Shown: piece after piece, positions 7,130 through 47,971 of the stretch
How positions within the stretch are numbered: the first letter of the stretch is position 1
Layout: every line of letters begins with the position of its first letter
Assembly (NCBI RefSeq): GCF_000377945.1
Contig: NZ_KB898926.1
Coordinates: 1 to 64,000 of the forward strand
Direction: 5' to 3'
Length of the DNA stretch: 64,000 nucleotides
From: Thioalkalivibrio sulfidiphilus
GTDB lineage: Bacteria; Pseudomonadota; Gammaproteobacteria; Ectothiorhodospirales; Ectothiorhodospiraceae
Position numbers and translations under genes: made by a program
Notes under the pieces: model-generated
Databases searched by the model: none
Told to the model about the DNA's origin: nothing
What the model saw: only the letters and a program-made list of their open reading frames with translations

Positions 7130-8290
7130 ATGAACCTTCACGAATTTCAGGCCAAGGCACTGTTCCGCGAATATGGCATCCCCGTGCCCGAGGGTGTGGC
7201 CGTGAGCGATCCCGCCGCCCTGGGCGAGGTGATCAGTTCCCTCGGCGGTGATGCCTGGGTGGTCAAGGCCCAGGTGCATGCGGGTGGACGCGGCAAGGCG
7301 GGCGGTGTGCGCCTGGTCAAGGGCTCCAGGGAACTGGAACATGCCGTGAGCGAACTGCTGGGTGGGCGTCTTGTCACCCACCAGACCGGTCCCGCGGGAC
7401 TGCCCATCAACACCGTGCTGGTGGAATCCCTCACCGACATCGGCCGGGAGCTGTATCTGAGTCTCCTGGTGGACCGTGCCCGGCGCCGGGTGGCCATCAT
7501 GGCCTCCGCCGCCGGCGGTATGGACATCGAGACCGTGGCCGCCGAGAGCCCCGAGAAGATCATCACCCTGCACGTGGATCCGGCCGCCGGCTACATGCCC
7601 TACCAGGGCCGCCGCGTGGCCTTCGCCCTGGGGCTCGAAGGACCGCAGGTCTCCGCCCTGGTGAAGCTGCTGGGCCAGCTCTACCGGCTGTTCGTGGACA
7701 GCGATGCGAGCCTGGTGGAGATCAATCCGCTGGTGGTCACCAAGGCCGGGGAACTGGTCGCCCTGGACGCCAAGATCAACCTGGACGACAACGGTCTGTA
7801 CCGCCACCAGGAACTGGCCGAACTGCGCGACGAGACCCAGGAGGACCCCCGTGAGGCCCGTGCCCGGGAGCACGAGCTCAATTACGTGCGCCTGGACGGC
7901 AACATCGGCTGCATGGTCAACGGCGCAGGCCTGGCCATGGCCACCATGGACCTGATCAAGCTGCACGGCGGCGAGCCCGCCAACTTCCTGGACGTGGGCG
8001 GCGGCACCACCGCGGCCCGGGTGGCCGAGGCCTTCAAGCTGATCCTCTCCGACGAGGCCGTGAAGGCGGTGTTCGTGAACATCTTCGGCGGCATCGTGCG
8101 CTGCGACCTGATCGCGGAGGGCATCATCAACGCCGTGAAAGAGGTCCATGTGACCGTGCCCGTGGTGGTGCGACTGGAAGGCACCAACGTGGACAAGGGC
8201 AAGCAGATGCTGGCCGAGAGCGGCCTGAACATCATCACCGCCGAGTCCCTCACCGATGGTGCCAGGCGGGTGGTGGCGTCGGTCCAGTGA
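7130..8290 (+). CDS. sucC: succinate-CoA ligase (ADP-forming), beta subunit
   Basis: 386 residues, the usual length. It forms a complex with SucD and converts succinyl-CoA, ADP and phosphate to succinate, CoA and ATP in the TCA cycle. The N-terminal ATP-grasp fold starts [20 protein letters not shown]; the nucleotide-binding stretch [17 protein letters not shown] and the C-terminal [11 protein letters not shown] and [13 protein letters not shown] motifs are present. The stop codon TGA (8288-8290) directly abuts the first ATTCAAN unit of an inverted-repeat element. Normally sucD follows at once; here a foreign-looking gene of about 400 bp separates them. Confidence 0.97.
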
Positions 8291-8766
8291 ATTCAAAATT
8301 CAAGATTCAACATTCAAAGGAAAACGAGAGGACATGGAATGTCTGGTGCTCGATTCGAGGATCTTGAGGTCTGGAGACGTGCGAGGACGCTCACGGCTTC
8401 CGTCTATGCGTTGACGCGTGACGGTGCCCTTTTCAGCGATCAAGTGCTTTGTCGCCAGATGCGTCGCAGCGCGGTCTCGGTGATGTCCAACATCTCGGAA
8501 GGGTACGAGCGGGGTGGGAATCGCGAGCTGATCAATTTTCTGTCCATGGCCAAGGGTTCGGCTGGAGAATTGCGTTCCCAGATTTATATTGCTCAGGATG
8601 CGGGCCTGCTGGACACGCAGCGGGCCGGGCATTTGAGGAATGAATGTGTTGAAATCAGTCGCATGCTCGCCGGCTTCATCCGTTACCTGCAATCTGGCAG
8701 ATATAAAGGTCACAAATACCGGATTCAGCAATCCCACCTTTGAATCTTGAATCTTGAATCTTGAAT
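8291..8766. mobile_element. candidate mobile element: heptad inverted repeats enclosing a four-helix-bundle gene
   Basis: The left arm (8291-8320) is four ATTCAAN heptads plus GG. The right arm (8737-8766) is CC plus four NTTGAAT heptads. Including the flanking base, the arms match in inverted orientation at 29 of 31 positions. The only gene inside is a complete 23S-IVP-like four-helix-bundle gene, whose stop codon lies inside the right arm. The element separates sucC from sucD without damaging either. Two shorter copies with the same arms occur at 9657-9766 and 40288-40396. Mobility is inferred from this pattern, not demonstrated. Confidence 0.65.
8339..8743 (+). CDS. four-helix-bundle protein (23S rRNA IVP / Avd-like family)
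   Basis: 134 residues with the hallmark layout of the family also encoded in 23S rRNA intervening sequences: [21 protein letters not shown], then [20 protein letters not shown], then [20 protein letters not shown], then a final helix before a basic tail. Family members form basic pentameric barrels, and relatives (Avd) assist reverse transcriptases in diversity-generating retroelements. No reverse transcriptase or variable repeat is seen here. The start at 8339 has GAGAGGA 6 bases upstream. The gene is enclosed by inverted heptad repeats and inserted between sucC and sucD, so it would be cotranscribed with them. Its function is unknown. Confidence 0.9.
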
Positions 8767-8782
8767 TGCGCGAGTCCCCACC

Positions 8783-9649: not shown

Positions 9650-9656
9650 GCGGCGA

Positions 9657-9766
9657 ATTCAAAATTCAATATTTAAAATTCAAAGGGAGGATCACGCCCG
9701 CGTTCTCCGTGACGGTCGATCGCGGCTGTGCCCGTCCTTTGAATGTTGAATTTTGAATATTGAATT
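9657..9766. mobile_element. short derivative of the ATTCAAN inverted-repeat element (no gene)
   Basis: The left arm (9657-9686) is ATTCAAA, ATTCAAT, ATTTAAA, ATTCAAA, then GG. The right arm (9736-9766) is CC followed by TTTGAAT, GTTGAAT, TTTGAAT, ATTGAAT. Arm structure, unit number and the inner GG/CC edge match the gene-containing copy at 8291-8766, but the interior is only 49 bp. It begins 7 bases after the sucD stop and ends 10 bases before the nadE start. Confidence 0.75.
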
Positions 9767-11870: not shown

Positions 11871-11990
11871 CAAGTGGTTAGTGGCTAGTGGCTAGTGGCT
11901 AGTGACAAGGAAAACCTTTGCTTCCCTGAGACCGAATCAGATCGAAGCCGCGGCTTTCCTTGCCACTCGCCACTTGAGACTTGCTACTTG
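11871..11990. repeat. inverted pair of TAGTGGC heptad units between convergent genes
   Basis: The left arm (11871-11910) contains TAGTGGT/TAGTGGC heptads and starts directly after the PII stop codon. The right arm (11958-11990) contains GCCACTC, GCCACTT, GAGACTT and GCTACTT, and includes the stop codon of the convergent nitroreductase gene (CTA at 11984-11986). The two arms therefore bracket the gap from stop codon to stop codon. Confidence 0.75.
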
Positions 11991-15419: not shown

Positions 15420-17999
<2,580 letters not shown>

Positions 18000-18036
18000 G
18001 GCGAAGAGCCGCAAGACCGAAAAGCCGAAAGCCAAC

Positions 18037-18133
18037 CGCGAAGGACGCGAAGGTTTGTGCAAAGGACGCGAAGGAATTCTCTTCCACTAGAAGTCCTTGG
18101 CGCCCTTCGCGAAAACCCTTGCGTCCTTCGCGG
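18037..18133. repeat. inverted pair of AAGGACGCG-type units after clpB
   Basis: The left arm (18037-18074) contains GCGAAGGACGCGAAGG and AAAGGACGCGAAGG. The right arm (18092-18133) contains CCCTTCGCGAAAACCC and CGTCCTTCGCGG. The spacing is 9-11 bases rather than strictly 7. A related arm lies at 59562-59590. Confidence 0.65.
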
Positions 18134-28345: not shown

Positions 28346-28362
28346 AGTCGGAGCCAAGGGGG

Positions 28363-28472
28363 GTAAGTACGAAGTGTGAATTGGGAAGTAGGAATTGAAG
28401 TAAGAAGTGGGAATTTGGAAGTGCGAAGTAATGGCCGTTAATTCCTACTTCCCAATTCACACTTCGTACTTA
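28363..28472. repeat. inverted pair of GAAGTGT-type heptads between convergent genes
   Basis: The outer arms (about 28363-28395 and 28439-28472) share the GTGAATTGGGAAGTA core. The right arm contains the folE2 stop codon (TTA at 28470-28472). The interior carries further heptad-like pieces such as GAAGTAAGAAGTGGGAA. This is the longest of the three copies of this family. Confidence 0.8.
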
Positions 28473-29282
28473 GCTGTCCTTGTCCTTCTCGATCAGCGCA
28501 TACGCCGAGTGGTTGTGGATGGACTCGAAGTTCTCCGATTCCACCGCGTAGGCGCGGATGCGCTCGTCGGCGTTCAGGCGGGCGGCCACGTCGCGCACCA
28601 TGTCTTCGACGAACTTGGGGTTGTCGTAGGCACGCTCGGTGACGTGCTTCTCGTCGGGGCGCTTGAGCAGGCCGTAGAGCTCGCAGGAGGCCTCGCTCTC
28701 CACCAGGTCGATCAGTTCCTCGATCCACACGAACTCGCCCACCCGGGCGTTGATGGTCACGTGGGAGCGCTGGTTGTGGGCGCCGTAGTCGGAGATCTTC
28801 TTGGAGCAGGGGCACAGGCTGGTCACCGGCACCACCACCTTGATGTTCATCTGTGCCACGCCGTCGTGGATCTCGCCGATGAAGCTCACGTCGTAGTCCA
28901 TCAGGCTCATCACGCCCGAGACCGGCGCGCGCTTGTTGACGAAGAACGGGAAGTTCATCTCGATGTGGCCGGAGCCGGCCTCGAGGCGTTCGGCCATCTC
29001 GTGCAGCATCTGCTTGAAGGACTGCACGGTGATCTCGTATTCGTGGTTGTTGAGGATCTCCACGAAACGGGACATGTGCGTGCCCTTGAAGTTGTGGGGC
29101 AGGTTCACGTACATGTTGAAGCGCGCCACCGTGTGCTGCTCGGCACCGGTCCGGTCGCTCACCCGCACCGGGTGACGGATGTCCTTGATGCCCACCTTGT
29201 TGATGGGGATCTGGCGGGTGTCGGCGCTGGCCTGCACGTCGGGCATGCCGCCGGAGATGGCCTTGGGTGCGATGTTGCTCAT
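28470..29282 (-). CDS. folE2: GTP cyclohydrolase FolE2 (type IB)
   Basis: 270 residues with the COG1469-type signature: [24 protein letters not shown] (catalytic Cys in SLCPCSK) and [13 protein letters not shown]. FolE2 makes 7,8-dihydroneopterin triphosphate from GTP, the first step of folate and queuosine synthesis, and works without zinc. The queD gene lies directly upstream in the same direction, supporting a role in preQ0/queuosine precursor supply. Confidence 0.96.
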
Positions 29283-40287: not shown

Positions 40288-40396
40288 ATTCAAGAATTCA
40301 AAATTCAAAATTCAAAATTCAATGCAAGGTTGGAGTCTCGCCAAAGCGTTGGGACCAGAGCCTATTCCTTTGAATTTTGAATCTTGAATTTCGAAT
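40288..40396. mobile_element. second short derivative of the ATTCAAN inverted-repeat element
   Basis: The left arm (40288-40323) has five heptads (ATTCAAG with a one-base slip, three ATTCAAA, ATTCAAT). The right arm (40367-40396) is CC, then TTTGAAT, TTTGAAT, CTTGAAT, TTCGAAT. The interior is about 43 bp. The right arm ends 7 bases before the ypjD stop codon (40404), and the left arm is about 55 bp upstream of the corC-like start. Confidence 0.75.
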
Positions 40397-46090: not shown

Positions 46091-46146
46091 GTCCGTAGGG
46101 TTTGCAATCCGTCCATGGTCGCTGCCACGTTGTGGGTTATGCTTTT

Positions 46147-46223
46147 GACCACTGACCACTGACCACTGACCACTGACCACTGACCACTGACCACTGACCA
46201 CTGACCACTGACCACTGACCACT
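46147..46223. repeat. perfect GACCACT heptad array, 11 units
   Basis: Eleven identical head-to-tail GACCACT units run from 46147 to 46223, ending 11 bp before the ATG at 46235. No inverted partner arm is present. The array occupies the place where the promoter and ribosome-binding site of the downstream gene would be, so changes in unit number could affect its expression. Confidence 0.9.
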
Positions 46224-46234
46224 GACCTGTGTCC

Positions 46235-47971
46235 ATGCCACGCCTCCTGCTGCTACTCCTGATCCTCCTGACTCCCCTGTCCCATGCCGACCCGGTCGTC
46301 GACGAAGCCATGGGACTTGCCCGTCTGGGAGCCGCCGATCTGGCCCTGGCCATCTTGGATCGCCACCCACCGGATCGCCTGACCCACCCGGACCGCTGGA
46401 TGGCCAGGGAGCGGGCGCGTCTCGAGATCCTGGGCATGGAGCAGCGCTGGCAGGGGGTGGTGGACCGTGCCGCACGCCTGCCGGCCGGTCTGCCCCGGGA
46501 GTTCCTCATCTGGGCCCGGACCCGGGAGGCCCATGCCCTGCTGTCCCTGGGGCGTGGCGAGGCGGCCCGCTCGGTGCTGCGGGACCTGATCTGGTTCTCC
46601 GGGGATGCGGTCAGCGAGGCCTGGCTGGATGCCTGGCGCGGCATGCTGGCGGAGAGCTACTGGCAGGACGGGCTGGGTGACGATGCGCTTTCCACGCTGC
46701 GCCGCTGGCGCCAGGATCGGGGCGAGGCGGCGCAGATCCCGCTGCAACTGGAGGCCCGTGTACTGCTGGACCAGGGGCAGGGCGAGGAGGCGGCGCACAT
46801 CCTGGAGCGGGAAACCGGCCACGAGGCCCGCGCCCTGCGGGCGCTGGCCTTGCTGCGCACCGGCAGCCGTCCCGCCGAGGATCTGCATCGGAGCATGACC
46901 CAGGCGGCGGCGACGGCGGACCTGCCCGCCCCGGATCGTGCCCGTTACCTGGCCGTGGCCGCCCTGGCGGCCGCCGAGACCACGGACCTGGCGCGGCGCG
47001 TGGAGGCCCTGGAGCGGGCCTTCGCCGTGCAGGGGCGACTGCCCCGGGAGGAGCAGATGCTGCGCCTGGACAAGGATGCCCTGTGGCTGGCCTATCTGGA
47101 CCTCGGGGAATCCCTGGGCAACGAACGCCAGTTGCTGATCGGCGATGACGACGCCTGGTTCGCCCTGGCGGACAGCCTGGGCAGCCGGTCGAGGATCCAG
47201 GCCCGGGCCCTGTTTGCGGTGGTGGGTGTGCGTGGCGTCGATCCCGAGGGTCGCGCCACCGCCCACCGGCGCCTGGGTGAAAGCCTGCTCGATCGGGATG
47301 ACGGCGCCGAACTGATGGACGTGCTCTACCTGGAGGGCGGGCGCTTCCCGACCCCAGAGGACGTGCCCGCCCCGGTGCGTCACCTGCTGGCCGAGCACGC
47401 CGTGGACCGGGGCGATCTGGATACCGCTTCACGCCTCATGGCGGGACTGTCCCGGCCGCCGGAAGGGGTGGACGGCTTCGAATGGGGCCTGCGCCGGGCC
47501 CGGGTGCTGATCCTGGGGGGGCAGGAGGAGGCGGGCATCGACGCCCTTTACGACCTGCTGTCCGGGGTGCGGCAGTTCGACGCCGAGCGGGCCGACCGGT
47601 TCCTTCAGGTGCTGTTCGATCTGCAGACCCTGCGCCGTCATGATGCCGCCGTGCACCTGTTCCGGGCCGTCGCGCCCCGGCTTACCGACGCCCGCCAGGC
47701 CCGGGAGGTGCTCTACTGGGAGGCGGACTCCCACCAGGCCCTGGGCCAGCACGAGGAGGCGGCCCGGCTGTACCTGCGCTCGGCGGGGCTGGGGGACGGG
47801 CCCTGGGACCCCTGGGGCATGACCGCCCGGTTCCAGGCCGCCGGGGCCCTGGCGGAGGCGGGGCATGTGTCCGATGCCCGTGCCCTGTACCTGGACCTGC
47901 TGCGGGTCACCCGTGAGCCGGAACGCCGTGTGCTGCTGCGTCAGCGCCTGCAACAGCTGGACCTGCGCTGA
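46235..47971 (+). CDS. exported helical-repeat (TPR-like) protein of unknown function
   Basis: 578 residues with an N-terminal signal peptide (MPRLLLLLLILLTPLSHADP). The rest is Ala/Leu/Arg-rich and helical with irregular TPR-like repeats, such as DEAMGLARLGAADLALAILDRH and YWEADSHQALGQHEEAARLYLRSAGLG. TPR proteins in the periplasm usually scaffold envelope complexes. ATG 46235 is chosen over GTG 46229. No clear Shine-Dalgarno is seen, because the GACCACT array runs almost up to the start. No specific family was recognised. Confidence 0.75.
   Translation: MPRLLLLLLILLTPLSHADPVVDEAMGLARLGAADLALAILDRHPPDRLTHPDRWMARERARLEILGMEQRWQGVVDRAARLPAGLPREFLIWARTREAHALLSLGRGEAARSVLRDLIWFSGDAVSEAWLDAWRGMLAESYWQDGLGDDALSTLRRWRQDRGEAAQIPLQLEARVLLDQGQGEEAAHILERETGHEARALRALALLRTGSRPAEDLHRSMTQAAATADLPAPDRARYLAVAALAAAETTDLARRVEALERAFAVQGRLPREEQMLRLDKDALWLAYLDLGESLGNERQLLIGDDDAWFALADSLGSRSRIQARALFAVVGVRGVDPEGRATAHRRLGESLLDRDDGAELMDVLYLEGGRFPTPEDVPAPVRHLLAEHAVDRGDLDTASRLMAGLSRPPEGVDGFEWGLRRARVLILGGQEEAGIDALYDLLSGVRQFDAERADRFLQVLFDLQTLRRHDAAVHLFRAVAPRLTDARQAREVLYWEADSHQALGQHEEAARLYLRSAGLGDGPWDPWGMTARFQAAGALAEAGHVSDARALYLDLLRVTREPERRVLLRQRLQQLDLR

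Follow-up and report, generated by a model that had tools for sequence, protein, structure and literature searches.

Inverted heptad arms around a four-helix-bundle protein gene between sucC and sucD in Thioalkalivibrio sulfidiphilus suggest a small selfish element with gene-less relatives

Introduction

Two puzzles of bacterial genomes meet in the locus described here: we know of no function for the widespread IVP/S23 four-helix-bundle proteins, and the heptad repeats of Xanthomonas, Beggiatoaceae and cyanobacteria have, to our knowledge, no accepted origin so far.

The closest described systems on the protein side are the intervening sequences (IVSs) of 23S rRNA genes. The IVS of Coxiella burnetii has a 28-bp terminal stem, is excised by RNase III and carries tandem GACAGAT heptads before its S23 open reading frame (PMC4990558), and the rRNA inserts of CPR bacteria include IVP genes at several sites as well as inserts that lack an open reading frame (PMC11270868). 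IVP genes have also been reported in cas operons (PMC3936711). A solved structure, 2GSC, is a pentamer built from five four-helix bundles (Lin et al. 2006, as cited in PMC4990558), and it is resembled by the structure of Avd, a distant relative of IVP that works with a reverse transcriptase (PMC10053308).

On the side of the repeats, GGGAATC in Xanthomonas and GGGGA(C/T)T in Nostoc form intergenic arrays in which four units are preferred, with 70-75 inverted pairs, a preference that was attributed to G-quadruplexes in a study that names no protein (Rehm 2015, PMC4692102). TAACTGA repeats form hundreds of intergenic arrays in Beggiatoaceae, cyanobacteria and Bacteroidetes, and horizontal transmission was proposed for them without a known mechanism; that study makes no link to IVP proteins, and a word search of it found none (MacGregor 2015, PMC4679880). 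Across the open-access literature that we searched, a remark on the Coxiella IVS (PMC4990558) was the only treatment of heptads and IVP proteins together that we found. With the heptads and the protein each known apart, the link between them at the level of a whole class is the surprising part of what we report here.

Anatomy of the sucC–sucD element

The window, that is, the whole stretch of 64,000 nucleotides that was analysed, holds an IVP gene between heptad arms in the sucCD operon, laid out as follows:

7130..8290, + strand: sucC, upstream host gene, intact, ORF of 386 aa
8290..8320, + strand: left arm, four ATTCAAN heptads plus GG, starting directly 3' of the sucC stop codon
8339..8743, + strand: IVP gene, 134 aa, four-helix-bundle protein of PF05635 / TIGR02436, pI 9.9
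8737..8767, + strand: right arm, CC plus four NTTGAAT heptads, including the IVP stop codon
8783..9649, + strand: sucD, downstream host gene, intact, ORF of 288 aa

The two arms, each 31 nt long, are complementary at 29 of 31 positions; the left-arm units read ATTCAAA/G/C/A, the right-arm units, in reverse complement, ATTCAAG/G/G/A, and the stem is closed by GG/CC. The gene between them (134 codons) matches PF05635 (23S-IVP) with E=2.8e-33 and TIGR02436 with E=4.8e-33, its TGA stop codon lies at 8741-8743 inside the right arm, and the nearest solved structure to its product is XCC0516 (2GSC, E=4e-11). Sequence comparison and profile searches thereby bear out what a first-pass annotation had read from the letters, namely a 23S-IVP family gene within four-heptad inverted arms matching at 29 of 31 positions, with its stop codon in the right arm and with sucC and sucD left intact. 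The same annotation had held that the arms could pair in RNA and loop out the gene, and this is supported by the predicted fold of the 520-nt sucC–sucD region, in which the arms are paired (z=-3.65). Within the genus the gene is under purifying selection, with a dN/dS of 0.08-0.19.

In anatomy the element and the classical IVSs are alike, as both combine a PF05635 protein with complementary ends of ~28-31 bp and hold the gene in the loop. The genus also has a 23S member: in genome G003 the 23S rRNA gene, with RF02541 extending over the entire locus, encloses an IVP gene (L042) that has TCAGATN heptads on its flanks, and tandem heptads are shared by the Coxiella IVS, L042 and the arms of the sucCD element. 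The latter differs from a 23S IVS in its site and in that the genome contains many gene-less relatives of it that share its heptad; since it lies outside 23S rRNA, between two protein genes, we class it as a relative of the 23S IVSs only. The comparison supports the earlier view of arms and IVP gene as one unit that lies at the end of a gene within an operon and is related to these rRNA insertions. The likeness to Avd lies in the four-helix-bundle fold, whereas sequence similarity to the Avd profiles is marginal (bAvd, E=0.064; DivGenRetAVD, E=0.038) and no reverse transcriptase is adjacent.

Gain of the element by the genus

The element was found between sucC and sucD in all five genomes of the genus and in none of 25 genomes examined in four further genera of its family, in each of which sucC and sucD are at most 68 bp apart; sucC orthologues are present in 41 of 41 genomes of the family. 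Because all five genomes inside the genus carry the insertion and all 25 outside lack it, it was gained by the genus, as a single insertion into the genome of its ancestor, immediately 3' of the sucC stop codon, and has been kept since. Thus, of the mobile insertion proposed in the first-pass annotation, the insertion is upheld by the empty junctions outside the genus, whereas inside it the element is old, fixed and vertically inherited.

A genome-wide family of mostly gene-less hairpins

A search for three consecutive ATTCAAN units (at most two mismatches) in the 3.05-Mb genome returned 181 forward and 169 reverse matches, against 0/0 for the backward control pattern, and so the arms are not due to chance. 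In 497 kb sampled, we counted 52 stringent period-7 tracts as opposed to 0-4 at other periods (the harmonic 14 apart), and the majority of heptad tracts there are pairs that enclose short loops without a gene. The families ATTCAAN, AGTGGCN, AAGTGNG, GGATGAA and GTCAGTT coexist in the genome, and the window includes these gene-less hairpins:

9656..9766, + strand: ATTCAAN hairpin downstream of sucD, ahead of the next gene; all five genus members have it, the arms in G002 being GTTCAAN; RNA fold z=-6.87
11872..11990, + strand: AGTGGCN hairpin; a gene-bearing AGTGGCN copy lies on contig C14
14454..14605, + strand: GGATGAA hairpin; an AAGTGNG hairpin occupies the same site in the sister species G004
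40296..40390, + strand: ATTCAAN hairpin; RNA fold z=-4.02

Among 18 gene-less ATTCAAN elements, exactly four units make up 14 of the left arms and 15 of the right arms. Their loops, of 9-111 nt, have no similarity to one another or to the IVP gene, and the elements are therefore not simple deletion derivatives. The ATTCAAN arms share the four units with the GGGAATC repeats, yet they cannot form quadruplexes, which rules out G-quadruplexes as the cause of their unit number. As for TAACTGA, its reverse complement resembles the GTCAGTT unit of this genome; TAACTGA arrays are mostly direct, whereas the ATTCAAN arms are inverted.

Being short, multi-copy, intergenic hairpins with inverted repeats, the gene-less elements resemble MITEs and REP/RAYT elements, and such anatomy would suit an origin in which an unrelated transposase (e.g. 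Y1/RAYT) moves the hairpins, with the IVP genes as passengers between two of them. Y1 transposase genes are indeed present in 7 of 7 genomes tested. They are, however, equally present in G006 and G007, two genomes without ATTCAAN arms, and no heptad tracts lie around them (0 of ten Y1 loci). Moreover, the 18 loops have no conserved interior, no target duplication was seen in the orthologous gaps compared, and a passenger would not be expected to carry an arm unit of its own for each protein subfamily and phylum, as the IVP genes described below do. We regard this origin as distinctly improbable, and hold to the reading of the hairpins as gene-less relatives of an IVP element.

Between this genome (G000) and G004, 14 of 15 resolved ATTCAA sites are common to both, and the other heptad families differ more. 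No transposition was seen in the comparison of heptad sites of these two genomes, and clean empty sites with target-site duplications were not found among the orthologous gaps compared; recent mobility of the ATTCAAN elements is weakly supported. Several gaps are occupied by different heptad families in different species, as at 11872-11990, where G000 and G004 have AGTGGCN, G002 has AAGTGNG and G003 has AGGCGTT.

Of the 15 element pairs in which loops could be recognised, two differ between G000 and G004 by an inversion of the loop; recombination between the arms, or a template switch from one to the other, would suffice to produce this. Both are AGTGGCN hairpins (window 11872-11990 and G000:C3 29782), and their flanks are not inverted. 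A further idea, that one arm was copied from its partner via the hairpin, was rejected: the free letters of ATTCAAN arms agree at 0.48 against 0.46 by chance (p=0.36).

IVP genes with repeat arms in the genome, the genus and many phyla

Each of the four PF05635 genes of the genome is enclosed by repeat arms, and the three besides the sucCD copy use heptads other than ATTCAAN:

L002: IVP gene with AGTGGCN arms, beside ribosomal-protein genes
L003: IVP gene with AGTTAGG arms, adjoining an rmlA-like gene
L054: IVP gene with GGGAAGT-type arms

At L002, a gene-less AGTGGCN hairpin (L002:2057-2171) lies across the ribosomal-protein genes from the IVP gene with the same heptad. The first-pass annotation had raised the question of further arm pairs and IVP genes, and the genome proves to hold both, though the gene-bearing copies have different heptads. 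Of the two findings that, taken together, would have spoken against its reading, fixation with vertical inheritance was thus borne out within the genus, and a lack of further armed gene-bearing copies was not. Beyond that annotation, the ATTCAAN arms turn out to belong to a genome-wide, mostly gene-less family, and the architecture is common to IVP genes of many phyla. Most PF05635 genes of the genus that pass the Pfam cut-off have repeat arms around them; three weak homologues found in sister genera lack them.

We fetched 80 IVP relatives from GTDB genomes of many phyla and found tracts on both flanks with a period of 7 in 44, of 8 in 13 and of 9 in five, as compared with none at periods 5, 6, 10 and 11 and one at period 12. 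Inverted arms (score of at least 15) enclose 47 of the 80 genes, as against 0 of 80 in shuffled sequences. Tracts of period 7 flank the gene on both sides in 32 of 54 loci, and flank one of 216 controls (four positions in each of these loci, with counts of 0, 0, 0 and 1 of 54). At L095, L102, L118, L125, L152 and L167, the period of the inverted IVP arms is 8 or 9 bp, not 7.

A further set comes from the bacterial family of genome G376, which is probably Xanthomonadaceae, judging by its GGGAATC repeats and by the closeness of the family's IVP proteins to XCC0516. Heptad tracts lie on both sides in 20 of its 32 IVP loci, and 13 of its IVP genes are located between accB and accC, with GGGAATC-like arms where these were resolved, GGGAATC being the heptad described in Xanthomonas as a repeat without explanation (PMC4692102). 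Gene-less heptad tracts were found in one of five IVP-bearing and in none of five IVP-free Xanthomonadaceae-type genomes (80 kb each), a difference too weak to use.

Taken together, the occurrence of IVP genes in heptad stacks across many phyla suggests that a class of very small selfish elements has been overlooked.

The heptad follows the protein

Left- and right-arm units agree within one mismatch in 60 of 79 loci, as opposed to 4.3% of random pairs. Across phyla, the heptad follows the protein (permutation p=0.0004), with a unit in common in 45% of protein pairs at 60-75% identity and in 0-7% of less similar pairs; for example, AGTGCTG/AGTGATG recurs in Planctomycetota and Acidobacteriota (L113, L117, L121). 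Inside the genus, the arms of the sucCD copy are ATTCAAN in four species and GTTCAAA in G002, which is also the sole genome where three consecutive GTTCAAN units dominate (141/200 vs 25/17); in the other four genus members the genome-wide family is ATTCAAN. Since both the gene's arms and the genome family are of the GTTCAAN type in G002, we conclude that arms, gene and genome-wide family change together, the within-genus switch being that of this one species only. G006 and G007, from sister genera, have neither the gene nor ATTCAAN arms.

These data also bear on whether the hairpins could instead be RNA signals useful to the host (in 3'-end protection, termination or processing), with IVP a domesticated RNA-binding regulator of heptad-bearing mRNAs. 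Several observations would suit such a role, namely that the elements are located where genes end, with most of them conserved between sister species, that four-unit arms are kept while loops vary freely, that the sucCD IVP gene is under purifying selection, and that one gap can hold different heptad families across species, as if a hairpin were wanted there. On the other hand, the unit varies among families and species, the sister genera G006 and G007 do without gene and arms alike, and the gene with its arms recurs at unrelated sites (sucCD, accBC, 23S rRNA, beside ribosomal-protein genes) and in phyla far removed from one another, where the unit still matches, as an element would. We therefore consider a host signal unlikely, albeit the most plausible of the alternatives to a selfish element.

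A proposed working of the element

The reading that we favour, and judge to be probably correct, is that the sucCD element is a small selfish element, the operon counterpart of a 23S IVS, with gene-less, non-autonomous relatives. We infer that it would work as follows. The element would be co-transcribed with sucCD. Base pairing of its arms would give a stem of ~30 bp with the IVP message in the loop, and RNase III would cleave this stem as it does in 23S IVSs; such cutting at the arms would make an insertion in an essential operon tolerable. The basic IVP protein would recognise the heptad of its own element and, in trans, might also act on those gene-less elements that carry this heptad. We know of no catalytic domain in IVP, and for this reason invoke a host polymerase or nuclease as its partner.

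More tentatively, and with somewhat less than even confidence, we propose that PF05635 proteins define bacteria-wide minimal mobile elements, whose ends would be inverted arrays of protein-specified 7- to 9-bp units in place of any fixed sequence. Such a unit could be replaced genome-wide together with the protein, gene-less hairpins would be moved without a known type of transposase, and the 23S IVSs would be those members that landed in rRNA. IVP genes that lie inside heptad repeats in many phyla, the two changing together, would offer a common and testable explanation for the protein without a function and the repeats without an origin. If so, it would also be understandable why IVP genes occur at sites where one would hardly expect them, including cas operons (PMC3936711), accB-accC and sucC-sucD.

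Arrays and differing repeats at other shared sites

Elsewhere in the window, positions 46137-46237 hold about a dozen TGACCAC units in G000, and G004 has TGACTCC throughout, with conserved flanks, which looks like a concerted change of the whole array. This difference would fit templated synthesis, and hence a scheme in which IVP assists a cellular reverse transcriptase, in the manner of Avd, and this enzyme adds short repeat units to the genome; the weak similarity to the Avd profiles given above and the published structural likeness of Avd to 2GSC (PMC10053308) point the same way. Against it, the sole RVT_1 of G000 lies on another contig (C28), and G003 carries the ATTCAAN family, yet no PF00078 reverse transcriptase was found there. 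We deem the scheme very improbable, and reject the need for a reverse transcriptase, be it of a DGR or of another kind, none having been found in the heptad-bearing G003.

At three sites (window 28350-28476, G000:C1 160833 and G000:C3 42795), a heptad hairpin in G000 is matched in G004 by a palindromic element of the GTAGGTCGGGCTTCAGCCCGAC type that is unrelated to it, as though several kinds of repeat were drawn to a single gap. Finally, the hairpin at window 17995-18124 is made of ~9-bp units (CGCGAAGGA) in G000 and of ~10-bp units (CGCGAATGAA) at the same site in G004.
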